Assembly (NCBI GenBank): GCA_905250025.1
Contig: CAJNOJ010000102.1
Coordinates: forward strand, 124,001-188,000
DNA from: Adineta ricciae
Lineage: Eukaryota > Rotifera > Eurotatoria > Adinetida > Adinetidae
Direction of reading: 5' to 3'
Length of the DNA stretch: 64,000 bases
In this document: in pieces, positions 19,768 through 54,559 of the stretch
How the letters are laid out: every line of letters starts with the position of its first letter
How positions within the stretch are numbered: the first letter of the stretch is position 1
Notes under the pieces: generated by a model
What the model saw: only the letters and a program-made list of their open reading frames with translations
Database searches by the model: none
What the model was told of the DNA's origin: nothing
Position numbers and translations under genes: made by a program

Positions 19768-21905
19768 ATGGCAACTGTTGGCGTCGTTTTACCGACATCA
19801 AGTTCGTTTGTCTACGAAGATTTAGTTTCTCAAGTGCAAACAATTCAAACTCAAATGATTGAAATGGAAAATTTTCTCGATAATCAATGGGAAAAAAACA
19901 AGAAAATGCAAAGTGAACTCAAATCGCGTTCTCTGACCTTCATCGATCCATATGGAAATCGAACGAAGATAAAATGTATGGATCATGAAACTATCAGTAA
20001 AACAATTAAAAAATACAGAAAAGAATATGTTCCCAAATACTTACAACCATGGATCAAAGTTGGTCTTTTAAATGAAAGTACTATTTCGCCCTTGAGCGAA
20101 TCTGCTTTAAAATCGTCTGTATCAAACTTCACAGCTAGCCATGAATTTGTTTCATATGGTGAAGTAACTGTATGGATGAGAATCCATGAGTCATTTCTAA
20201 CAAAAAAGGTTGTTATTAATGTATTATTATCGGACGACTTAGAGAAAATCAAAATGAGAGTTAAAGAACGCCGGCGATTTACAGATCTGGAATTAAAAAT
20301 GTCCACAGTAGAAGAAAATAAAACACCAAGCGAGAAGGATTGGACTGAAGGTACACCTCTAAAATCCAAGGATACAGTTATGTCAAGTCAACTGTATCTA
20401 CAAAACAGTATCATACTGGCAAAAGTCCACAACAAACAAGTATGACCATAACTGATAGAAGATTTCGCTCTATTTCTCTTTTTAAGACTCATTCAAGTGA
20501 CAAAGGGCAATTCTTGATATTTGTGAAAACTCTTACCGGACAAAGTATGACTCTTGAAGTTACTTCAAAGATGAAAGTTCAAGATTTGAAGAAATTAATT
20601 GAAGAAACAGATGGTATCTGCATTGATCAACAACGGATAATATTTATGGGAATACAACTAGAAGATGGTAGAGCACTAAGTGACTACAATGTCCAGAAAG
20701 AAAGTACGTTACATTTGGTATTGCGATTACGTGGTGGCATGTATCATTTTACCAGTGGTCGACAAGATTTCGAAGATTTGCCTGTTACCAGCTCTAATGC
20801 GATTAAAGAGGTGCTCGCATTCAAACTTAGCAGCATACACGACACCAAACAATTGTCGCCATCTGAGCTACAGAATTCACTTTTACAAGGAAAAGCTATT
20901 CTTTCATCTTTGTACCAAGAAATCAATGAAATCTATATTCCAGATAGTATTTCAAATTTGAGAAATATGATCTTGCCAGCACCTATCGATGATGCACAAG
21001 ATGATGAAAGTGAAGATGATGATGACGATGACGACTCTTCCAATCAACAATGACTAGCTTCCACACAAAAACAACTTCGAGTCTACCGATTATTAGAACG
21101 ACAAACTCTCAAACAACTCCTCATCAAAGAAGAACAACTCCGACTTGCACCACAAACACAACAACTACTCGCATCCATTCAAGATCGAACTGACATCGAC
21201 TGGATGGATGTCATTGCTCAACTTCAAACTACACTCGTCAAAGAAACTATCGGCGAAGATGCGACTGAAAACGAAATTCAACATGCTCTCACTATCTTCA
21301 GAAGTGCGCATCAGATCTATGCAGACGATCAAGAATTCCAAAATCTCTCTCTCTATGTTCGACATAATCGTGCACGACTAGGTCATCTCAAACTTGCTGA
21401 TCAAGCACCAGACGTACAACTACTAGACCTAAACAATCACTTTCATTCATTGTTATCTCATTGTCATTCTCCTCATCGACCTCTCTTGATCATTGCTGGC
21501 TCATACACATGACCGCCGTTTCGTGGAGTTGTACCACAACTCCATCAGCTCATGGATGCATACAAACATCGTGTTGATATGGTGACTGTTTATATCGAAG
21601 AAGCACATGCATCCGATGAATGGCCCATCGGTAGTCGAGTCTGTTATACTCAACCGAAGTGTGACGCCGATCGAATCGGTATTGCGCTGGATTTTATCAA
21701 AGCAACAGACTATCGAATACCTCTGTTGATTGATCCAGTATCCCTTGGCAATCCATTCAGCAAAGAATACAATCCATGGCCTATTCGATTCTATGTGGTG
21801 GATGGAAAGAAACGATTGAGCTACATAGCTGCACCGATTGCAGGATCATATCCACTGGAGTTGATTCGAAATGCACTGGATGAAGCAATTCAACAATCTC
21901 AATAG
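19768..21905 (+). CDS. Ubiquitin-like / deiodinase-like selenoprotein (copy 1)
   Basis: Exons 19768-20439 and 20487-21905 (47-nt intron). Translation to the first stop, UGA at 21051, gives 412 residues: a novel N-terminal domain ([27 protein letters not shown]) with a possible beta-grasp segment, then a clear ubiquitin-like domain ([14 protein letters not shown]...[10 protein letters not shown]) followed by [11 protein letters not shown], a helical region and an acidic tail ending SSNQQ. The same frame continues past UGA-CUA-G with no stop until UGA 21510-21512, and then to TAG 21903-21905. The distal half is iodothyronine-deiodinase-like: [15 protein letters not shown] at the catalytic selenocysteine position and [12 protein letters not shown], a deiodinase hallmark. 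Reading both UGAs gives 696 residues. A SECIS hairpin follows. It is likely a thiol/selenol oxidoreductase; substrate unknown. Confidence 0.8.
21051..21057 (+). promoter_or_regulatory. UGA-CUAG readthrough context (copy 1)
   Basis: The stop is CAA-CAA-UGA-CUA-G. UGA followed by CUA(G) is the established high-efficiency readthrough context of animal mRNAs. The frame beyond is open for 152 further codons up to the selenocysteine UGA. All three copies in the window keep it. Confidence 0.6.
21510..21512 (+). other. Selenocysteine UGA codon (copy 1)
   Basis: In-frame TGA inside GSYT-U-PPF, exactly where deiodinases carry the catalytic selenocysteine in GS(A/C)TUPPF. The frame is open on both sides (21204-21509 and 21513-21902) and codes for conserved family sequence beyond the codon. 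Confidence 0.85.
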
Positions 21906-21963
21906 TTCGTGTTTCTTTTTGTTCGATGTGAGAAATGATGATCGCATGTTATTGTGATGTGTA

Positions 21964-22038
21964 AAAGAAGTAGAATGATGTTTTTTGTCGAAAGTATATT
22001 TAGTGTACAGACAAGAGGCTGATATATGATATTCTTTT
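21964..22038 (+). promoter_or_regulatory. SECIS element (copy 1)
   Basis: It lies 58 nt after the TAG. The lower helix pairs AAAAGAA (21963-21969) with TTCTTTT (22032-22038). The core quartet is ATGA 21975-21978 against TGAT 22020-22023. Helix II is ten pairs, 21980-21989 with 22010-22019 (four G-U allowed). The apical loop opens with GAAAG at 21990-21994 (the AA motif), and GTA/TAC can form the extra mini-stem of a type II SECIS. Every diagnostic part is present in the right order and spacing. Confidence 0.8.
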
Positions 22039-22108
22039 GATATCTCAATGATACGAATGATCATTCTCTTATACTTTATGTTTATGTTTGTATTTTTCTT
22101 CTTCAATG

Positions 22109-22114
22109 AATAAA
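22109..22114 (+). terminator. Poly(A) signal of copy 1
   Basis: AATAAA about 70 nt after the SECIS hairpin in otherwise non-coding AT-rich DNA; a reasonable end for the selenoprotein mRNA. Confidence 0.4.
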
Positions 22115-22159: not shown

Positions 22160-22894
22160 TAGATGAAACAAGTAGATGTGTCAATACTAATATCAGTGAA
22201 GAATCGACTGGTTAGAGCATTGGAATTTTCTAATACTATATGATTGACATACGTATACTGAAGTAACAGATCGTAGAATGTATTATTTCAAAACGAACTA
22301 ACACGCTAATATTGTAGTATATTGAGAAAAACCACATGTCGTATTAATATGGATTTGGTGAAGTACGGAGTCATCTGTCTGTTTTTACTACAAAGATCCT
22401 ATCTCAAATGTAAAATGGCGTATTTCCACAATACTCCCAGGGAGTCGCAAATTCGCCGTTCCTCGTTTGAAATAAAGCCTTTTTCCTGCTGAATATGTAA
22501 CAATTGCAGCTATTTTATGTTTGTATTAAAGCGTTCGTTTTGAACACATCCTGATATACTGACATAGTACGCAAGGCTGACGTTCGATAAATTGAAGTTT
22601 CATGATGCGCTAGCTACTGACATCTGTCGTGAGCTTTCGTCCTACTTCGATTTTTAATCGATTTCTAATCACTTTTAAAGATAAAAAATATAAATTATTT
22701 GAGACTTGTATAATAAATCACTCGGAAAAATAGAAGACTGTCATTGTTAATAGGATGATTCATATCTCATGACGGAACAGATGGTTCACCCAGTCGCATC
22801 GTGTTTCCTTGTTCTTTTATTATTTTCTCAACATGGCAGATAATTAATTTTTTTCCCTACTCTTTTTTGTTGTTATAAAATAATTCATTTCAAA
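22160..22894. other. Intergenic, no gene seen
   Basis: About 730 bases of AT-rich spacer. No exon, RNA gene or repeat was recognised. Confidence 0.45.
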
Positions 22895-24787
22895 ATGTCC
22901 AATCAGCCAACTAGCAAGGACGATCAAGAAGAACAAAAAAGCAAAAAACCAGCTGGTAATTTTTCGTATTTTTATCTAGTTCCTATTTATAATTTCTTCA
23001 TTTGTTTAGATACAGCATTTAAACAGCAACGTTTACCTGCTTGGCAACCGATAATAACTGCAGATACAGCCTTGCCGGTATTTTTAATTATTGGTTTACT
23101 TTTCATTCCAATTGGTATCGTCTTAGTGGTGACATCGGAACGCGTATGACAGATTTTGCTCAGATAATTATATGCATTCATTTGTTTTCGTTCAAGGTAC
23201 TCGAATATGATCTCGACTACACAGAAGGAAATTGTATGAGCACAACTGTGAGCAACACAACATGCGCTAAGGTTTTACAAAATGGAGGATCTTCATGTAC
23301 CTGTGATATACCAATCAATTTGGATCAACCTTTCACAGTTTGTTGATTCGCAAAAATCTAGATAGTGATGTACATTTCTTTTTTATAGGGGAAAGTTTAT
23401 TTCTATTATGGTCTGGTAAATTATTATCAAAACCATCGTCGCTATGTTAAATCTCGTGATGACAATCAATTATTGGGTAAAACAGATGCAGTGAGCAAAG
23501 ATTGTCAACCTTTTCAAAAGTCAGTGAACGGTTCTGATTATACACCGTGCGGTGCAATTGCTAATTCGAAATTTAACGGTATCTCATGTTCTTGTTTATC
23601 CATCTTCAAAAAACATTCTTTTCTTGTCAACTAGATTCATTAACACTCGTTTTCAATGGAAGTCAAACTGTTCCACTTCTAAATACTGGCATCGCTTGGA
23701 CAACGGATAAAGATGTTAAATTCAAAAATCCAAATAATGCTTCGACTTGTAAATATTTTGAATTTTTCTCTGTTTGAAATACAATCTCTTACGTAAATAG
23801 ATTTTCAAAATAATCCGCCTCCACCTAATTGGAAGTATACTGCATGGGATCTAGATAAGAACAACAGTGACAACAATGGTTATAAAAATGAAGATTTCAT
23901 CGTTTGGATGCGAACAGCTGCAATGCCAGCATTTCGTAAACTGTACCGACGACTCAATACAAATAGTTCGCAAACATTTCAAGGTGGTTTACCACAAGGA
24001 AACTATACATTGAAAGTTCAATATAGTAAGCACTGTTTATTAGGTGATAACAAAGGCAAAGTTGTGTCTTCTACTGTTTTAAGATTACCCGGTCATAAAT
24101 TTTTCCGGACGAAAACAATTTATTATCAGTACAACATCATGGATGGGAGGAAAAAACCCGTTTCTCGGTTGGGCCTATATTGTCGTTGGAATTGTTTGTA
24201 TGATTGCATTCGTGGTCTTTTTTATCCTTCATAAAACATGGAAATTGTAAGTTTTTTTTCTCCTCAAAAGCCTCTCAATCGTTCTAGTTCATCGTATAAT
24301 TGAATTCTGTCGTCTTTGTATATAACGTTCTCTCTCGGCAAAGATAAGAAGAAAATGACTGTTACTCATTGTCATTTTATCAGTTCTGTCTTTGCACTAT
24401 CGAACTGATATATTTATCTAACGATCATATTCGTACCTAAGTAAAGACAACATTTATCTAATGAAACTCTTGAATTACAGAAGTCATATTTAATGTTCAC
24501 ATAAAAATATTAATCAACAGGATGTACATCGTTGTCACCAGGGAAAGTGTGTCTCCGTCTACGTATAACCAATACTAACTACGAAAGAATTGAACTAACG
24601 TCAGATGAGTTTCATTAACACGAAGTGAAAGCTTACGAGAAGCATATTTGCTCGAAGGCAGCTGATCTTCCATTTTGTGTTACATGATAAGCTTCGCTTT
24701 GCTATGCTTGCCTGTGTTTCATTTTTTTTGTTTCCCTTATCTAATTCTCTTCTTTTCTCGTTTAGACAAAATCGACCACCAACATAA
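22895..24787 (+). CDS. TMEM30A: CDC50/TMEM30 flippase beta subunit
   Basis: Eight exons: 22895-22955, 23010-23143, 23197-23337, 23389-23578, 23635-23748, 23801-24025, 24084-24246 and 24766-24787, total 349 residues with all phases consistent. Six introns are 51-58 nt, but the last is 519 nt, unusually long for this genome. The protein has the LEM3/CDC50 architecture: short cytoplasmic N-terminus, [12 protein letters not shown] before helix 1 (about residues 38-62), a large Cys-containing, N-glycosylatable ectodomain ([42 protein letters not shown]), then [19 protein letters not shown] and helix 2. It chaperones P4-ATPases from the ER and supports phospholipid flipping. The length matches the animal family. 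Confidence 0.92.
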
Positions 24788-35321: not shown

Positions 35322-35397
35322 AAAAGAATATCATATATCAGCCTCTTGTCTGTACACTAAATATACTTTCGACAAAAAACATCATTCTACTTCTTTT
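35322..35397 (-). promoter_or_regulatory. SECIS element (copy 2)
   Basis: Exact reverse-complement counterpart of the copy-1 hairpin; the ATGA core is at 35385-35382, and the helix, GAAAG loop and TGAT core are unchanged. It lies the same 58 nt beyond the TAG at 35457-35455. Confidence 0.8.
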
Positions 35398-35454: not shown

Positions 35455-37594
35455 CTATTGAGATTGTTGAATTGCTTCGTCCAGTGCATTTCGAATCAAC
35501 TCCAGTGGATATGATCCTGCAATCGGTGCAGCTATGTAGCTCAATCGTTTCTTTCCATCTACCACATAGAATCGAATAGGCCATGGATTGTATTCTTTGC
35601 TGAACGGATTGCCAAGGGATACTGGATCAATCAACAGAGGTATTCGATAGTCTGTTGCTTTGATAAAATCCAGCGCAATACCGATTCGATCGGCGTCACA
35701 CTTCGGTTGAGTATAACAGACTCGACTACCGATGGGCCATTCATCGGATGCATGTGCTTCTTCGATATAAACAGTCACCATATCAACACGATGTTTGTAT
35801 GCATCCATGAGCTGATGGAGTTGTGGTACAACTCCACGAAACGGCGGTCATGTGTATGAGCCAGCAATGATCAAGAGAGGTCGATGAGGAGAATGACAAT
35901 GAGATAACAATGAATGAAAGTGATTGTTTAGGTCTAGTAGTTGTACGTCTGGTGCTTGATCAGCAAGTTTGAGATGACCTAGTCGTGCACGATTATGTCG
36001 AACATAGAGAGAGAGATTTTGGAATTCTTGATCGTCTGCATAGATCTGATGCGCACTTCTGAAGATAGTGAGAGCATGTTGAATTTCGTTTTCAGTCGCA
36101 TCTTCGCCGATAGTTTCTTTGACGAGTGTAGTTTGAAGTTGAGCAATGACATCCATCCAGTCGATGTCAGTTCGATCTTGAATGGATGCGAGTAGTTGTT
36201 GTGTTTGTGGTGCAAGTCGGAGTTGTTCTTCTTTGATGAGGAGTTGTTTGAGAGTTTGTCGTTCTAATAATCGGTAGACTCGAAGTTGTTTTTGTGTGGA
36301 AGCTAGTCATTGTTGATTGGAAGAGTCATCGTCATCTTCACTTTCATCATCTTGTGCATCATCGATAGGTGCTGGCAAGATCATATTTCTCAAATTGGGA
36401 AGATTCGATGGAGCATAAATCGCTTTGATTTTACCATGTAAAGACGTTAAGACTACGTTGGCTTGTAAAATATATTCTTGTAAATCAGCGGATGACAATT
36501 GCTGATAATCGTCGGTATCTTTAGTTTCAAACGAAAGAACATTACGAATAGCATTTTCACAACTACTTGGTAGCTGACTGAAGTCTTGTCGACCGCTAGT
36601 AAAATGATACATTCCACCTCGTAGGGAAAGCACTAGATGGATAACAGCTTCATTGGGAATATGATAATCTGATAATTTTCGACCATCTTCCAATTGTTTA
36701 CCGGCATATATGAAACGTTGGTGGTCAGGAGGAATACCTTCTATATCTTGTACCATTTGTTTCACATCTGTCACATCTGTCATTGCAGTAACAATTAATG
36801 AAAGTTTTCTTCCGGTAAGAGTTTGAACAAACAGGTTGTATGCATTATCAGAGCTCGATGCCTACAATCAACGTGAAAGAAGATAGAGTGTGAAAGAGTT
36901 TGACAAATGTAATATCTCTCACCGTTTGTATAACTTTGGCCATGATAATATAGTTATCTTGATACAATCGACGCGATAAGATGGTATCCTCTGGTTTGAG
37001 TGCAATACCGGAATTCCAATTTTCGGCGGTCAGTGTACGTGCTTCACTTCTCTCACTAAATCGTAGTTCAAAGTTTGTGACACGACACTGGTCTCTAATT
37101 CGAGTCTTGATTTCTTCTAAAGTATCTTTTAGAAGAACCTTGACAACGAACTTTTGCGGTGGAAGAGTGTCGTAACGCCCGAACCAGATGGTAATTTCTC
37201 CATAGGCGATAAACTGAACATCATGAACAAAATTTGACATCGTTGATTTTAAATCACAATCATCTAGTGCAGATAAACCACTGCCGGTTAACGTACCAAT
37301 ATAGATCCAGTTTTTTAAATATTTTGGAACATAGGCTCTTGTGAAGTTTTGAATAACACTGTTCATTGGTTCATGATCCATGTGTTCTTCAATCATTTCA
37401 TTTCCATACGGATCAATAAAAGTAAATGAATGGTATTCGATTTCGTCACGCATATCTTTTTTGTTATTTTGCCACCGTTGAGCGAGAAGTTTTTCAAAAT
37501 CATTCATTTGATTTTGTATAGTTTGAACTTGTGAAACTAGATCTTCATAAACAAATGAATCTGGTATCGTCGACAAAACTTCTGTATTAGCCAT
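35455..37594 (-). CDS. Ubiquitin-like / deiodinase-like selenoprotein (copy 2)
   Basis: Exons 37594-36923 and 36861-35455 (61-nt intron). The first UGA, 36309-36307, has the same CUAG context; the selenocysteine UGA is at 35850-35848 in GSYT-U-PPF; the end is TAG 35457-35455. Up to the first stop the product is 408 residues, with full reading 692. The ubiquitin-like domain ([14 protein letters not shown]...LSLRGG) and the N-terminal domain differ strongly from copy 1 but are about 95 percent identical to copy 3. From 36396 to 35283 the DNA is almost identical to copy 1 (20955-22077), with one 9-nt indel in the Asp run and very few substitutions. The head-to-head neighbour is an esterase gene. 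Confidence 0.8.
35848..35850 (-). other. Selenocysteine UGA codon (copy 2)
   Basis: In-frame TGA flanked by SYT and PPF codons, identical to copy 1, with conserved deiodinase sequence continuing beyond it. Confidence 0.85.
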
Positions 37595-38203
37595 ATTGCC
37601 TCTCTACAATCGAATAGCAATTATCTAGAATGAAATTATTTTCATGTCACGAAAACATTAATTGAAATCACCAAAGCTATCTCTACGAGTTTGGGTAAGT
37701 TTTCTTCTCAATTGAGACAATCGTTAAATATTTTACTAGATATAGGACACTTTCTCTTCTGTATAATGTCTTAGAAGTAATATACATACTTTTCTTTGGA
37801 GTTGAAAGTCAAGAAATTGATATTTAGTCACGAAACAGAAGTGAACCATTGTCGTTACCATACGGAGTATTTATACATTCACGAAGAGTGATATGACTGT
37901 TTTCAGCGTTTGTTTAATTCATAAATTTCTGATTGGTTCTCCTAGTTTTCACAACTTTAACAGGATTTGCGCAATGCATATTTCGTCATGTGTGTAAACG
38001 AGAAAAACACCAATTTTCGCTTGTGCAGAAACGCAAGAGAATATTTTGTGCCACAGATATAATTTCCTTTTCGTGAAGCACTTTTATTACGTATTTTATC
38101 CTTAATTTACTAACAAACAATAATGTAAAAAGAAAGTCTATTCTTGATTATCCAGCTACTTATGAGAAAACAAAACATCATCGTTCTTTCCGATAATTTG
38201 TGA
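37595..38203. other. Spacer between ubiquitin-like gene and esterase
   Basis: About 600 AT-rich bases with no exon; conserved in the second unit at 41352-42176. Confidence 0.4.
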
Positions 38204-39357
38204 TTATATCGACTGCATCCACTTGTTAATATTGTCGAGTGTATCACGCGCTTCAGGAAAATATGAAAAGAACAGTGGATAAACGTGCATCATATGTAAA
38301 CCTGCTTCGAACTTGACTTCAACACCTGCTTCTTGTGCTTTCTTTACGACTGCTCTTCCATCGTCTTCCAGTATGTCAGCTGTACCGACATTCACATACA
38401 GCGGTGGAAATCCTTTGAATGAACCAAACAGAGGGCTCACTATTGGATCGGTTGGTAAAATTTTTGATCCATAAGTATCCATGATCACTTTAGCCTGCCA
38501 TTTGGTATTATCTGTTCTTAGCATCACATCTGTCGGTTGATTACGAGTATAACTTTCACCGGACGCTGAGAAATCAGTCCATGGTGCTATGGCGACAATA
38601 CCACGTGGGACAGGTATTTTGTGGTTAATTAGCGATTGAACTGTTAAGAGAGCTAATCCACCTCCAGCTGAATCCCCCATGATAACGATTCGAGATGGTG
38701 ATACATTCTGAGTGAGAAGAGAGCGATAAATTGTTATTGCATCTTCAACAGCTGATGGCACGGGATGTTCTGGAATGAGACGATATTCCAGATGTAGAAT
38801 AGGTACATTGAATAGGCGAGACAAATGGCATTCAATTCCACTATAAACTACGAAAAGCAAAAGTATTTTATTGGTCTTCAAAAACAGAATGACTTACAAT
38901 TGATGTCACCAAGCATATAACCACCACCATGAAAGTAAAGTATAATTTGCTCGGACTGCTTTCGTAAATCTTTCTCACGATGATCAATCCAATAGCCATC
39001 TACTGTACGACCATCATGTGTAAATGTTTCTTTGATCATTTGACAGCCAGACGGCTCAGGAATTATGTCACTAAAGGAAAAACTTGCACGTACGCTTTGA
39101 ATCGTCGCTAAGGGATTTGTTGAATGGACAAAGGACTGTGGTGGACTCATTTTCATCATCTCTTCGAAAGCACGATAGGCTGGACTGAGTGTTTGTCGGC
39201 CTGGATCGACGACGAAACAATTCTTGAGTGTTAATGTTGAGTGTAACAATCGTACTAAAAGATATTTATGATTTGTTGAACCATATCGTAATGGTACAGC
39301 AACAGCTGCAATCACAACGACAAAAATCAACTTTTTTAAGCCTCCACTTGATGACAT
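38204..39357 (-). CDS. HSL/AADAC-type alpha/beta-hydrolase (unit A)
   Basis: Exons 39357-38898 and 38847-38204 (50-nt intron) give 367 residues. A single membrane helix at residues about 9-24 acts as an N-terminal signal anchor, so the catalytic domain probably faces the ER lumen, as in AADAC/NCEH1. The oxyanion-hole motif HGGGY lies near residue 142. The nucleophile Ser is in GDSAGG near residue 213. The Asp is in NVGTADILEDD and the His in HMMHVYP near the C-terminus. This is the hormone-sensitive-lipase (abhydrolase_3) family, carboxylic-ester hydrolases of lipids or xenobiotics. All catalytic residues are present. Substrate is unknown. Confidence 0.85.
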
Positions 39358-39448
39358 CGTTTGTTTTACGTTTATGAAAATGATTTGATTTTTTCGTTAC
39401 ATAGACTGTTCTACTTTCAATGTTACCTACGATATTCGAAACACGTGT

Positions 39449-39477
39449 CTTTCTTTCTTTCTTTCTTTCTTTCTTTC
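39449..39477 (+). repeat. (CTTT)n microsatellite
   Basis: About seven CTTT units upstream of esterase A; the homologous site in unit B (near 43422) has only two or three, so the length is polymorphic between copies. Confidence 0.7.
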
Positions 39478-39977
39478 CCTTTCGTGCATCGTATGTAAGA
39501 CGTTGTCATCACACTTTTTTCATACATCAAGAACGCAAAAATACGATGATTGGATTTTCAGTTGACAAATTTCATCGTGAAATGACTGCGGAGATGATAT
39601 AGAAGGTGATTATGTGCACAAAAGTTCTTTTTTTAGAGATAATTGAGAGATATCGAGCGAAGTCGCCTATTTATGAAACATAATCAACCAGTAATTTACC
39701 CAAATAGTTAGTCTAATTTTTGATAAATGACCTTCCAAAACTTCCACTTAAGATTGCAAATGTTATATACAATTATTCTATTCAATTACGTATAGCATCA
39801 TTGGCTTCCTCTAACTCAATTTATTGATCTTCTCCTAGTAACAGCATATCTCAATCATACAATAACAGTTACTCGGAATAGAAAATGAATAGTCCAGTAT
39901 TTAACTCTACGACTTAGAAAAATTATAATAACTTCATTAAGGTTTAAATATGACTCGAAATTGAACGATAACTTTAT

Positions 39978-39978: not shown

Positions 39979-41351
39979 TGAGTTGTTCTTCTTTGATGAG
40001 GAGTTGTTTGAGAGTTTGTCGTTCTAATAATCGGTAGACTCGAAGTTGTTTTTGTGTGGAAGCTAGTCATTGTTGATTGGAAGAGCCGTCGTCGTCGTCG
40101 TCATCATCTTGTGCATCATCGATAGGTGCTGGTAAAATCATGTTTCTCAAATTGGGAAGATCCGATGGAGCATAAATCGCTTTGATTTTACCATGTAAAG
40201 ACGTTAAGACCATGTTGGCTTGTAAAATATATTCTTGTAAATCAGCGGATGACAATTGCTGATAGTCGTCGACGTCTTTAGTTTCAAACGAAAGAACATT
40301 ACGGATAGCATTTGCACAACTACTTGGTAGTTGACTGAAGTCTTGCCGACCGCTAGTAAAATGATACATTCCACCTCGTAGGGAAAGCACTAGATGGACA
40401 ACAGCTTCATTGGGAATATGATAATCTGATAATTTTCGACCATCTTCCAATTGTTTACCGGCATATATGAAACGTTGGTGATCAGGAGAAATACCTTCTG
40501 TATCTTGTATCATCTGTTTCACATCTGTCACATCTGTCATTGAAGTAACAATTAATGAAAGTTTTCTTCCGGTAAGAGTTTGAACAAACAGGCTACATGT
40601 ATTATCTGAGTTCGATGCCTACAATTAACGTGAAAGAAGATAGAGTGCGAAAGAGTTTGACAAATGTAATATCTCTCACCGTTTGTATGACTTTGGCCAT
40701 GATAATATAGTTATCTTGATACAATCGACGCGATAAGATGGTATCCTCTGGTTTGAGTGCTATACTGGAATTCCAATTTTCGACGGTCGGTGTACGTGCT
40801 TCACTTCTTTCACTAAATCGTAGTTCAAAGTTTGTGGCACGACATTGGTCTCTAATTCGAGTCTTGATTTCTTCCAAAGTATCTTTTAGAAGAACCTTGA
40901 CAACGAACTTTTGCGGTGGAAGTGTGTCGTAACGTCCGAACCAGACAGTAATTTCTCCATAGGCGATAAACTGAACATCATCAACAAAATTTGACATCGT
41001 TGATTTTAAAGCACAATCATCTAGTGCAGATAAACCACTGCCGGTTAACGTACCAATCTGGATCCAATTTTTTAAATATTTTGGAACGTAGGTTCTTGTG
41101 AATTTTTGAATAACACTGTTCACGGGTTCATGATCCATGTGTTCTTCAATCATTTCGTTACCATAGGGATCAATAAAAGTAAATGAATGGTATTGGATTT
41201 CGTCGCGCACATCTTTTTTGTTATTTTGCCACCGTTGAGCGAGAAGTTTTTCAAAGTCATTCATTTGATTTTGTATCGTTTGAACTTGTGAAACTAGATC
41301 TTCATAAACAAACGAATTTGGTATCGTCGATAAAACTTCTGTATTAGCCAT
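39979..41351 (-). CDS. Ubiquitin-like protein (copy 3), cut by the assembly join
   Basis: Exons 41351-40680 and 40618-39979. The frame reaches the first UGA at 40069-40067, again in the UGA-CUAG context, then continues open until the N. The deiodinase half and any SECIS are therefore absent from this copy as assembled. The N-terminal and ubiquitin-like domains are about 95 percent identical to copy 2 ([12 protein letters not shown] vs [12 protein letters not shown]). The acidic tail is a longer plain Asp run, lacking the ESE of the other copies. Confidence 0.75.
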
Positions 41352-42176
41352 ATTGCTTCTCTACAATCGAATAGAAATTATCTAGAATAAAATTATTTTC
41401 GTGTCACGAAAACATTAATTGAAATCACCAAAGCTATCTCTATGAATTTGGATAAGTTTTCTTCCCAATTGAGACAATCGTTAAATAGTTTACTAGATAT
41501 ACGACACTTTCTCTTCTGTATAGTGTCTTGGAAGTAACATACATACTTTTCTAGGGAGTTGAAATTCAACAAACGATAGTTAGTCACAAAGCAGAAGCGA
41601 ATCATTATCATTACCATACGGAGTATTTATACGCTCACGGAGAGTAACATGACCGTTTTTGGCGTTTGTTCTATTCATAAATTTCTGATTGGTTCTCGTC
41701 GTTTTCGCAACTTTTACAGGATTTGCGCAATGGATATTTCGTCATGTGTGTAAACAAGAAAAACACTAGTTTTCGCTGGTGTGGTATGTTCGAAAGGTGA
41801 CGAAATATTTAGAAAAAAAGAGTTTTATAATACCACTACGTTCCAAAGAAGTAGTATTGATTAAATCTATGTTTGTTATTTCGTACGATTTCTTCTGTGT
41901 TTAATCTCCTGAACACACAAGAAAATGTTTTTGTTCTATTCTAATCGAAACGATGGCAAATCACTCTCTCCAGCGAATTTAGTTAATGAACAATGTGACA
42001 GAAACGCAAGAGAATATCTTGTGGCACAGAGATAATTTCCTTTTCGTGAAGGACTTTTATTACGTGTTTTATCCTTAATTTACTAACAAACAATAATATA
42101 AAAAGAAAGTCTATTCTTGATTATCCAGCTACTTATGAAAAAACAAAACATCATCGTTCTTTACGATAATTTGTGA
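41352..42176. other. Spacer in unit B with a 220-230-base extra segment
   Basis: Aligns to 37595-38203 of unit A except for an extra stretch near 41780-42000 with no coding potential. It is either an insertion in B or a deletion in A. Confidence 0.5.
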
Positions 42177-43330
42177 TTATATCGACTGCATCCACTTGTT
42201 AATATTGTCGAGTGTATCACGCGCTTCAGGAAAATATGAAAAGAACAGTGGATAAACGTGCATCATATGTAAACCTGCTTCGAACTTGACTTTAACACCT
42301 GCTTCTTGTGCTTTCTTTACGACTGCTCTTCCATCATCTTCCAGTATGTCAGCTGTACCGACATTCACATACAATGGTGGAAATCCTTTGAATGAACCGA
42401 ACAGAGGACTCACTATTGGACCAGTTGGTAAAAGTTTTGATCCATAAGTATCCATGATCACTTTAGCCTGCCATTTGGTGTTGTCTGTTCTTAGCATCAC
42501 ATCTGTTGGTTGATTACGAGTATAACTCTCACCGGACGCTGAGAAATCAGTCCATGGTGTTATGGCGACGACACCATGTGGAACAGGTATTTTGTGATTA
42601 ATTAGCGATTGAACTGTTAAGAGAGCTAATCCACCTCCAGCTGAATCTCCCATGATAAAGATTCGAGATGGTGATACATTCTGAGTGAGAAGAGAGCGAT
42701 AAATTGTTACTGCATCTTCAACAGCTGATGGCACGGGATGTTCTGGAATGAGACGATATTCCAGATGTAGAATAGGTAGATTGAATAGGCGAGACAAATG
42801 ACATTCAACTCCACTATAAACTATGAAATGTAAAAGTATTTTATTGATCTTCGAAAACAGAATGACTTACAATTGATGTCACCAAGCATATAACCACCGC
42901 CATGAAAGTAAAGTATAATTTTCTCGGACTGCTTTCGTGAATCTTTCTCACGATAATCAATCCAATAGCCATCAACTGTACGACCATCATGTGTAAATGC
43001 TTCTTTGATCATATGACAGCCAGACGGCTCAGGAATTATGTCTCTAAAGGAAAAACTTGCACGTACGCTTTGAATCGTCGCTAAAGGATTTGTTGAATGG
43101 GCAAATGACTGCGGTGGGCTCATTTTCAACATTTCTTCGAAAGCACGATAAGCTGGACTGAGTGATTGTCGGTCTGGATCCACGACGAAACAATTCTTGA
43201 GTGTTAATGTTGAGTGTAACAATCGCATTAAAAGATATTTATGATTTGTTGAACCATATCGTAATGGTACAGCAACAGCTGCAATCACAACGACAAAAAT
43301 CAACTTTTTTAAGCCTCCACTTGATGACAT
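42177..43330 (-). CDS. HSL/AADAC-type alpha/beta-hydrolase (unit B)
   Basis: Exons 43330-42871 and 42820-42177, with a 50-nt intron in the same place as in the unit A esterase and the same 367-residue length. The anchor helix, HGGGY, GDSAGG, TADILEDD and HMMHVYP are all kept. Differences are scattered conservative changes. The gene is divergent from the DNA ligase gene, about 700 bases away; the intergenic sequence between them is repeated before the ligase copy at 53.2 kb. Confidence 0.85.
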
Positions 43331-44025
43331 CGTTTGTTTTACGTTTATGAAAATGATTTGATTTTTTCGTTACATTGACTGTTCTACTTTCAATGTTACC
43401 TACGATATTCGAAACACGTGTCTTTCGTTCTTTCTTTCCCTTTCGTGCATCGTATGTAAGACGTTGTCATCACACTTTTTTCATACATCAAGAACGCAAA
43501 AATACGATGATTGGATTTTCAGTTGACAAATTTCATCGCGAAATGACTGCGGAGATGATATAGAAGGTGATTATGTGTACAAAAGTTCTTTTTTTAGAGA
43601 TAATTGAGAAATACCGAGCGAAGTCGCCTATTTATGAAACATAATCAACCAGTAATTTACCCAAATAGTTAGTCTACTTTTTAATAAATGACCTTCCAAA
43701 ACTTCCACTTAAGATTACAAATGTTATATACAATTATTCTATTCAATTACGTATAGCATCATTGGCTTCCTCTAACTCAATTTATTGATCTTCTCCTAGT
43801 AACAGCATATCTCAATCATACAATAACAGTTACTCGGAATAGAAAATGAATAGTCCAGTATTCAATTCCACCAGTTAGAGAAATTATAATAACTTCATTA
43901 AGGTTTAAATATGACCCGAAATTGAACGATAACTTTATACTTATTCTTACTTATGTGGCGCCTCTCGAAAAATTCTACCAAAACTCGCTATTGGTTGTTC
44001 ATAATACACCAATAACTCATTCATA
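43331..44025. other. Divergent promoter region, esterase B / DNA ligase
   Basis: About 700 AT-rich bases between two divergently transcribed genes. No exon is seen. Confidence 0.5.
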
Positions 44026-53162: not shown

Positions 53163-53163
53163 N
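53163..53163. other. Single-N contig join 2
   Basis: The sequence after it (53164-53287) repeats 39855-39977, the end of unit A, almost exactly. This marks a contig overlap placed in the wrong position. Confidence 0.9.
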
Positions 53164-53387
53164 ATCATACAATAACAGTTACTCGGAATAGAAAATGAAT
53201 AGTCCAGTATTTAACTCTACGACTTAGAAAAAATTATAATAACTTCATTAAGGTTTAAATATGACTCGAAATTGAACGATAACTTTATGCATCTTCTTAC
53301 TTATGTGGCGCCTCTCGAAAAATTCTACCAAAACTCGCCATTGGTCGTTCATAATACACCAATAACTCATTCATATTCGTCTATGTA

Positions 53388-54506
53388 CTTTCCGATGTCT
53401 TTGAAACATTGTTTCTCTTTTCGCTTTGTTCAAGTTTTATTTTATAATGAACATCATTTGAGATATTTGTCGTCATCTGCAAAGAAGATTAAAATGAGTA
53501 ACACAAAGAAAACCAGTCAACCATCGATTGCGTACGTTTAAAACTCTCCTACGCTCGTTAATTTATGATCTTCTGAATTATTTTAGTTCTTTTTTTACAA
53601 AAAAAGGCCAGGCACCTGTGATTTCGCCTAAAAAAGAAGCAATTAAATCCCCAATTACTGTTAAGAATGAAGCACCAATCAATTCTCCTTCATCAGATTC
53701 AGAAGATAAGATTATTCCAGCGAAACGTGCGAAAAAGCGTGTGTTAAGTTTCGATGAAAGTAATTCATCAACAGAAAATGCCAAAGAATCACCTGTGAAA
53801 GCTGTGAAACAAATCAAAATCACTGATACAAAAGCAGAAGTTAAAGAGGAAATCCAAACAATAGTTCCTAAAGTTGAACAGCCAACAACGACAAACGTTC
53901 CACTTGAACAGAAAAGGTAATCAAGCTGTTCTTTCGAAAAGAATGTTCTGTACAACTAGTGTTTTAGTGTGGCTGATCCACAGTCATATAATCCCGGTAA
54001 AACGAATTATGATCCTGTCAACGATGCATGTTGGAAAATCGGTGAAAGGTAAATGTCCACTTTGAAAAAGAATGGTCAAATATTTATAAGTTTGGCATCA
54101 TTTGTAGTGTTCCGTACAGTGCTTTGTCAGCAACGTTATTATTAATTGAAGACACTTCTGCTCGTTTAGAAATTATTCGAATCTTATCGAATTTCTTTCG
54201 TTCAGTTCGAAGTTTATCAGCCAATGATTTAGTATACAGCGTTTATTTATGTGTTAACAAAGTAGCACCAGAATACGATGGCATCGAATTGGGTATTGGT
54301 GAAACTATTATTATCAAAGCAATTGCTGATAGTACTGGTCGCACGATGGATCAAGTAAAAGCTGATTACAAATCGAAAGGTGATTTGGGACTGGTCGCTG
54401 AGGTAAAGTTCAACATTGCAAAGTACTTGATAGTCACTGGATTATTTTCAGACATCTCGTTCAACGCAACGAACGATGTTTAAACCCAAACCGTTAACAG
54501 TATCGC
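53388..54506 (+). CDS. LIG1: DNA ligase 1, second copy, 5' part only
   Basis: Collinear with the intact gene: upstream ATG near 53383-53390 with the same presequence, exon 1 ending QPSIA, the PIP box completed as SFFTKK, the Lys/Ser/Glu-rich N-terminal region, and the start of the DNA-binding domain to exon 5 ([17 protein letters not shown]). It is cut by the N at 54507. Splice sites are kept and the frame is open, with only scattered substitutions, so this is an allelic or paralogous gene truncated by assembly rather than a decayed one. Confidence 0.8.
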
Positions 54507-54507
54507 N
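54507..54507. other. Single-N contig join 3
   Basis: Truncates the second DNA ligase copy. Sequence beyond begins with an unrelated purine-rich stretch and a calpain fragment. Confidence 0.9.
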
Positions 54508-54559
54508 ATGTCCCTACTTCACAATAAGTCACACGCTTATACAGAGAAGAGAGACAGAG

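Follow-up and report, generated by a model that had tools for sequence, protein, structure and literature searches.

A likely deiodinase-like selenoprotein, probably fused to a ubiquitin-like domain, in the bdelloid rotifer Adineta ricciae

The stretch of DNA analysed here (the window; 64 kb, G000:C102:124001-188000) holds a gene for a deiodinase-like domain whose frame is interrupted by a single UGA, which is very probably read as selenocysteine (Sec). The domain is likely to be the C-terminal part of a longer protein of about 670 residues, in which a ubiquitin-like part is fused to the deiodinase part (19768-21905; Table 1). An earlier reading, made from the sequence only, had proposed a selenocysteine deiodinase-like gene with a SECIS-like element in this rotifer; that proposal is supported by our analysis, whereas the ubiquitin-like domain upstream and the probable fusion had been missed.

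We propose that the predicted protein would carry, in this order, a ubiquitin-like domain, a TSGR module, a helical linker and a deiodinase-like thioredoxin-fold domain with Sec at UGA 21510. A SECIS element in the 3' UTR would lead the ribosome to insert Sec at this codon, a step that is supported by the sequence. A short intron (21010-21057, or to 21096) would remove a further TGA at 21051 and join the two halves, and a deubiquitinase would probably cut after LRLRGG and release a soluble enzyme starting with MYHFTSGR. The released enzyme would perform Sec-dependent redox chemistry on a substrate other than thyroid hormone, with the classical deiodinases encoded separately. Taken as one statement on Sec, fusion, cleavage and a non-thyroid substrate (the last two as probable, not certain), we consider this account reasonably probable.

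The gene would add a type of selenoprotein with a ubiquitin-like leader, and many public models split, truncate or skip it at the Sec codon. Neither a ubiquitin-deiodinase fusion nor a bdelloid deiodinase-like selenoprotein was found in the titles and abstract starts of the open-licence literature that was searched.

Table 1. Features of the fusion gene, its copies in the window and the deiodinase-like loci of the genome
Feature	Position	Strand	Remarks
Exon 1, N-terminal region	19768..20439	+	best Pfam match DUF6967, 18.1 bits (cut-off 27)
Intron 1	20440..20486	+	47 nt, GTATGA...TTTAAG; spliced product contained in P0032
Exon 2, ubiquitin-like domain and MYHFTSGR module	20487..21009	+	PF00240, 78.8 bits; the domain ends in a 12-residue segment, followed by the module
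Putative intron 2	21010..21057	+	48 nt (alternative acceptor 21096, 87 nt); inferred from models of relatives
Exon 3, helical linker and deiodinase-like domain (PF00837)	21058..21905	+	stop TAG 21903-21905
TGA, probable Sec codon	21510..21512	+	GSYT-U-PPF; TGA also at this site in 6/6 genome loci
SECIS-like element, form 2, copy A	21962..22050	+	core to core 21975-22023
SECIS-like element, copy B	35337..35385	-	same sequence as copy A
Copy B, whole gene	35455..37594	-	ATG 37594; ubiquitin-like part 36840-36364; deiodinase-like frame 36306-35455; Sec codon 35850-35848
Copy C	39980..40591	-	ubiquitin-like part and first 29 codons after the TGA; deiodinase part missing, cut at N (39978)
Copies A and B, active site			GSYT-U-PPF
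L001 and L002, classical deiodinase copies			GSCT-U-PPF
L005			GSYS-U-PPL
L006			GSST-U-PPF; Sec exon located 5' of the exon matched first

The Sec codon and the SECIS-like element

The T4_deiodinase (PF00837) frame at 21054-21905 is broken solely by the TGA at 21510, beyond which it continues for 130 codons (21513-21902) that include the 11-residue segment named in the sequence-only reading; all of these features had been correctly described. The Pfam search that had been proposed at the same time yielded 69.9 bits for the translated frame (cut-off 27), with a match to residues 111-276 that spans both sides of the TGA. The start given previously, 21204, is indeed the first in-frame ATG, but the frame is already open from 21054.

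A PF00837 search of the 130 Mb genome assembly resulted in six matches, and TGA occupies the active-site position in all of them. The genome of this one small animal holds at least three deiodinase-fold Sec types: classical, ubiquitin-fused, and a TSGR type without ubiquitin. Components of the Sec machinery were found as well, namely tRNA-Sec (two loci, 69.8 bits), SepSecS (285.8 bits), SelD (148.6 and 131.6 bits with neighbouring exons added, cut-off 125) and an eEFSec domain (56.3 bits).

Relatives of the protein are conserved beyond the UGA position, and their public models tend to break there, as had been expected of ordinary annotation. A profile search passed 224 proteins. Among the 120 that were listed, 45 end exactly before the Sec position and 11 have a residue at it (W in nine, R in two); the other 64 start behind this position, bypass it or are incomplete in some other way. 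Among the models are P0025-P0031, all seven of which end in ...GSYT. The two sides of the codon can also be found as listed proteins of their own, as for A. vaga P0093, which covers the region after the Sec position in a ubiquitin-type copy, and A. vaga P0111, which covers the region before it in a TSGR-type copy.

Downstream of the frame, the hairpin with AUGA/UGAU core, ten-pair helix and GAAAG loop that had been noticed earlier was recovered at 21975-22023. It consists of a lower helix (AAAAGAA/UUCUUUU), AUGAU, ten pairs (three of them G-U), GAAAG, a short upper stem and UGAU, and the minimum-energy fold is this structure. Its folding energy is unexceptional (z -1.23; 26 of 200 shuffles fold as well). 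The Rfam model SECIS_1 aligned end to end with the hairpin of copy A at 23.8 bits, below the gathering score of 35, and gave no match behind the other four deiodinase-like loci. Rfam at gathering level over the 64 kb window returned one tRNA only and no SECIS. With this model, a SECIS score above threshold is absent, which the sequence-only reading had held to speak against its claim. Because the Rfam model stays below threshold, the case for Sec rests on the recurrence of the TGA, on conservation of the frame beyond it and on the presence of the canonical parts of a SECIS.

We also used a SECIS descriptor, which combined the core, a helix of 8-15 pairs, AA on the 5' side of the loop, and energy. 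Since it was composed after the hairpins had been viewed, it does not amount to a blind test. It matched three times in the 64 kb window, both strands included, and two of these matches lie exactly behind copies A and B. Across the genome, the descriptor matched 3' of five of the six deiodinase-like loci, with the matches of L001, L002 and L006 starting less than 110 nt from the stops, while L005 had no descriptor match and only a weaker, bulged candidate. The background was six matches in 188,828 strand-bases of 29 other genome loci (three of the six being one site in overlapping loci); when the 250-base 3' region was shuffled 1000 times, 10 of the shuffled sequences contained a match. All parts of a form-2 SECIS are present, a combination that is rare by chance, and we refer to the element as a putative SECIS. 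Further, the upper stem of the SECIS-like element is kept between L001 and L002, with a C-G pair in one and a U-A pair in the other. We conclude that the reading of UGA 21510 as Sec is well supported.

As a separate observation, the ordinary stop of L001 (G000:C142:1-2530) is a UGA located 30 nt before its SECIS-like element; the stop of its sister L002 is UAA.

The ubiquitin-like half and its junction

A frame with the ubiquitin-like domain lies directly upstream of the deiodinase-like part, in the same frame, and closes at the TGA at 21051-21053, as does the public A. ricciae protein P0032. This protein contains the 412-residue intron-1-spliced product letter for letter, together with 71 residues further upstream. 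No Pfam family was found over threshold for the N-terminal region encoded by exon 1.

For the ubiquitin-like domain and its partner to form a single frame, the TGA at 21051, which falls inside putative intron 2, has to be spliced out or read, and the models of relatives favour splicing. P0025-P0031 (four from A. steineri and three from Rotaria) span the N-terminal region, ubiquitin and the linker up to the truncation described above. Rotaria models P0012, P0013 and P0006 are similar in part, with the ubiquitin-like and deiodinase-like parts joined, and the Didymodactylos model P0002 leaves out the Sec segment. Both candidate acceptors find counterparts: the 12-residue junction produced by acceptor 21096 resembles GDKRDVLKDLL of P0013 and P0022, and acceptor 21057 retains LRVYRLLER, which is part of an open protein in Didymodactylos P0046 and environmental P0142. 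With acceptor 21096, the predicted fusion has 667 residues with Sec at 537. Donor 21010 is weak and is absent in copy C and P0034. We dropped preservation of the frame as proof of intron 2, as six of six GT-AG pairs across TGA 21051 keep the frame.

Alternatively, the locus could be an operon-like pair. TGA 21051 would then be the stop of the ubiquitin-like gene, and the Sec protein would be translated from an mRNA of its own or from a trans-spliced one, with ATG 21204, the first ATG downstream of possible acceptor 21057, as its start codon. Spliced-leader trans-splicing occurs in bdelloids, the end of P0032 coincides with this TGA, Rotaria models P0004 and P0005 start at the equivalent Met, and the genome has ubiquitin-like genes without a deiodinase part. 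We nevertheless regard such a pair as rather unlikely, given that both parts are joined in the models of relatives, that fungi carry the fusion in single proteins, and that coding similarity extends 35 residues upstream of Met 21204, where fungal and other rotifer proteins align.

The second alternative dispenses with intron 2 and takes TGA 21051 as a second Sec codon that relies on the same SECIS; a single mRNA would then yield either a short ubiquitin-like protein or a long protein with two Sec residues. The frame is continuous from 20487 through both TGAs, the TGA is kept in all three copies A, B and C, and LRVYRLLER, located between 21051 and 21099, also occurs in P0046, in environmental P0142 and partly in P0107, as if coding. 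Against this, none of the relatives was read with a UGA-like break at this position and P0046 has ordinary residues there, acceptor 21057 likewise retains LRVYRLLER while removing the TGA, and SNQQ-U-LAST is no redox motif. We consider this alternative improbable and favour the fusion, with a predicted splice that would remove TGA 21051.

The ubiquitin-like part ends in LRLRGG, and the next residue is Met; a ubiquitin-type fold ending in LRGG stands directly before its partner. In 61 proteins with the M..TSGR motif, the Met is preceded by GG in 50 and by AG in 3, whereas 7 have a ubiquitin-free MGM.H.TSGR start and 1 starts at the Met. We propose cleavage because the ubiquitin-free type begins almost where the cleavage would fall, and judging from these sequences a cut by a deubiquitinase after LRGG is plausible, with the balance about even. 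The ubiquitin-like paralogues L019 (G000:C153), L020 and L021 (G000:C290) carry the TSGR module and no deiodinase part and also keep GG-M, so the enzyme is not the sole reason why this join is conserved. The arrangement resembles the ubiquitin-ribosomal protein fusions eL40 and eS31, in which a ubiquitin-type domain with LRLRGG likewise directly precedes the partner and which are cleaved after LRGG. The rotifer protein differs in that its partner is a Sec enzyme, its domain has diverged from ubiquitin and bears an N-terminal extension, and its cleavage is only predicted. Should this cut take place, a selenoenzyme would have ubiquitin as its leader.

Relatives and likely function

A search with the fusion as query returned 63 proteins, 23 of which list both PF00240 and PF00837, all with names of arbuscular mycorrhizal fungi. 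One of them, from Ambispora, was checked as Glomeromycotina; we take the sources of the other fungal fusion proteins to be Glomeromycotina, i.e., arbuscular mycorrhizal fungi, as well. These fusions (e.g., P0037 of Diversispora, P0039 of Ambispora and P0048 of Rhizophagus) share with the rotifer protein the ubiquitin-like domain, LRGG-M..TSGR, the helical linker and GSYT before the catalytic residue. They differ in having P-L for P-P after the catalytic residue and, in many cases, a ZZ finger, and in having Cys for Sec: all 26 fungal deiodinase-domain proteins, 23 of them with a ubiquitin domain, read GSYT-C-P-L. An earlier paper reportedly deals with selenocysteine in early-branching fungi. 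Because one architecture occurs with Sec in rotifers and with Cys in fungi, the contribution of Sec could be tested directly.

In trees of 38 and 34 rows, the latter leaving out the long-branched L006, P0087, P0089 and P0121, rotifer ubiquitin-type and fungal proteins grouped together at 85/80 and 82/77, respectively. A rotifer-only grouping was not rejected (p-AU 0.358), and long branches are involved. On account of these values we did not adopt the rotifer and fungal fusions as a proven clade, and consequently one old origin, transfer between kingdoms and two separate fusions are all compatible with the data. The scan of viral contigs contained no relatives. Environmental protein P0087 (483 aa) is deiodinase-like with a long N-terminal region and a weak ubiquitin match (E 0.17, below cut-off), and is perhaps another fused lineage.

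Fifteen bacterial loci were identified by profile. Twelve have an in-frame stop at the Sec position (TGA by codon in nine; L058, L060 and L061 seen as stop only), two have Cys, and L064 is unreadable there. The loci with a stop read GSYT in nine cases, GSFT in two and GSNT in one. The Tyr two residues before Sec, regarded as unusual in the sequence-only reading, is common outside classical deiodinases, because nine of these 12 bacterial loci read GSYT, to which GSYT-C in 26 of 26 fungal proteins can be added. The bacterial Sec deiodinase-like proteins are alike in their GSYT-U-PPF and EAHASD motifs and differ in that neither a ubiquitin-like part nor a helical linker was seen. Sec decoding in bacteria would need a bacterial SECIS. 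Sec deiodinase-like proteins have been described in bacteria, according to the accessible part of PMC1088965. Deiodinase-like selenoproteins outside vertebrates, comparable to the rotifer protein in this respect, also appear in the accessible parts of reports on Dictyostelium (PMC2375036) and algae (PMC7539508), which, unlike our description of the rotifer protein, make no mention there of a ubiquitin-like fusion.

Among solved structures, mouse DIO3 (4tr3, E 7.6e-11) and DIO2 (9h48, E 1.9e-10) are the closest by sequence, which makes a true thyroid-hormone (iodothyronine) deiodinase of the rotifer worth considering, as does the Pfam family T4_deiodinase itself. The protein shares the fold family and the catalytic Sec with DIO1-3. 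Numbered from Sec170 of mouse Dio3 in the alignment (Arg275 lies beyond the aligned part), the equivalents of Ser167, Thr169, Tyr197, Glu200, His202 and Trp207 are kept, which together make up the catalytic environment in true deiodinases, the last three being catalytic, whereas Cys168 is replaced by Tyr, Asp211 by Gly and His219 by Pro. Changing Glu200, or the Dio1 counterpart of His202, is described to abolish activity, and His219 to have a substrate-binding or structural role (both from the accessible part of PMC7506546). Unlike DIO1-3, the window protein has the ubiquitin-like fusion and no transmembrane segment predicted by hydropathy (highest 19-residue mean 1.10), i.e., no N-terminal membrane anchor. 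It also does not group with vertebrate deiodinases: a mouse DIO3 fragment groups with the classical L001/L002 at 100/98 and the window protein falls elsewhere, so that closeness to vertebrate deiodinases is not supported for it. Thyroid-hormone deiodination by the predicted protein is unlikely because it lacks a transmembrane segment and a His219 equivalent and because separate classical deiodinases exist in the genome; its relatives in fungi and bacteria likewise leave a true deiodinase only a slim chance.

We infer that the protein is most likely a soluble redox enzyme that depends on Sec and whose pocket is of the deiodinase type, but which acts on another substrate. Since deiodinases share a peroxiredoxin-like motif (accessible part of PMC11592359), the substrate might be a peroxide, which is a plain guess. 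Such an enzyme would set the deiodinase fold with Sec apart from thyroid hormone.

More tentatively, and with some doubt, we put forward a wider account of a ubiquitin-leader selenoenzyme. Here, a ubiquitin-like precursor cut after LRLRGG would represent an architecture shared with arbuscular mycorrhizal fungi, with Cys there, that is very old or has moved between kingdoms, and splicing or recoding at the second UGA would determine whether a short ubiquitin-like protein or the full-length selenoprotein is made.

Copies and variation at the Sec site

Between copies A and B, only three of 809 bases of exon 3 differ, and the deiodinase-like proteins are identical. This near-identity of the inverted copies covers roughly 20960-22110 (36390-35240 in copy B), including the deiodinase-like exon and the 3' UTR, while the ubiquitin-like parts are far more diverged, with about half of the residues identical. 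The pattern resembles that expected after a recent gene conversion or partial duplication.

That the gene has decayed and the TGA is an ordinary nonsense mutation is scarcely credible: W or R occupies the Sec site in some Rotaria copies and copy C is without the deiodinase domain, but TGA recurs at the same site in all six loci of the genome, five of them with a SECIS-like element 3', many relatives read intact on both sides of the site, and no amino-acid change separates copies A and B.

The Rotaria models with Trp or Arg at the Sec site are P0003, P0004, P0006 and P0007; if the DNA has TGG or an Arg codon there, Sec would have been lost without replacement by Cys. Environmental proteins such as P0001, P0082 and P0083 show W at this site, which may be TGA read by another code, and we draw no conclusion from it.

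Additionally, a unit of about 4 kb occurs in tandem at 36220-39977 and 39980-43938 (94-96% identity). The two units meet at one N (39978), and part of the unit recurs at 53164-54512, beside N at 53163 and 54507. Either the sequence was truly duplicated in tandem, or two alleles were joined in the assembly. A 215-base stretch at 32714-32928 matches its own reverse complement at 83%. Copy A is followed by a CDC50-like gene (22844-23634). In A. steineri, model P0065 combines CDC50 with the end of a deiodinase-like protein, which suggests the same neighbourhood in that species.
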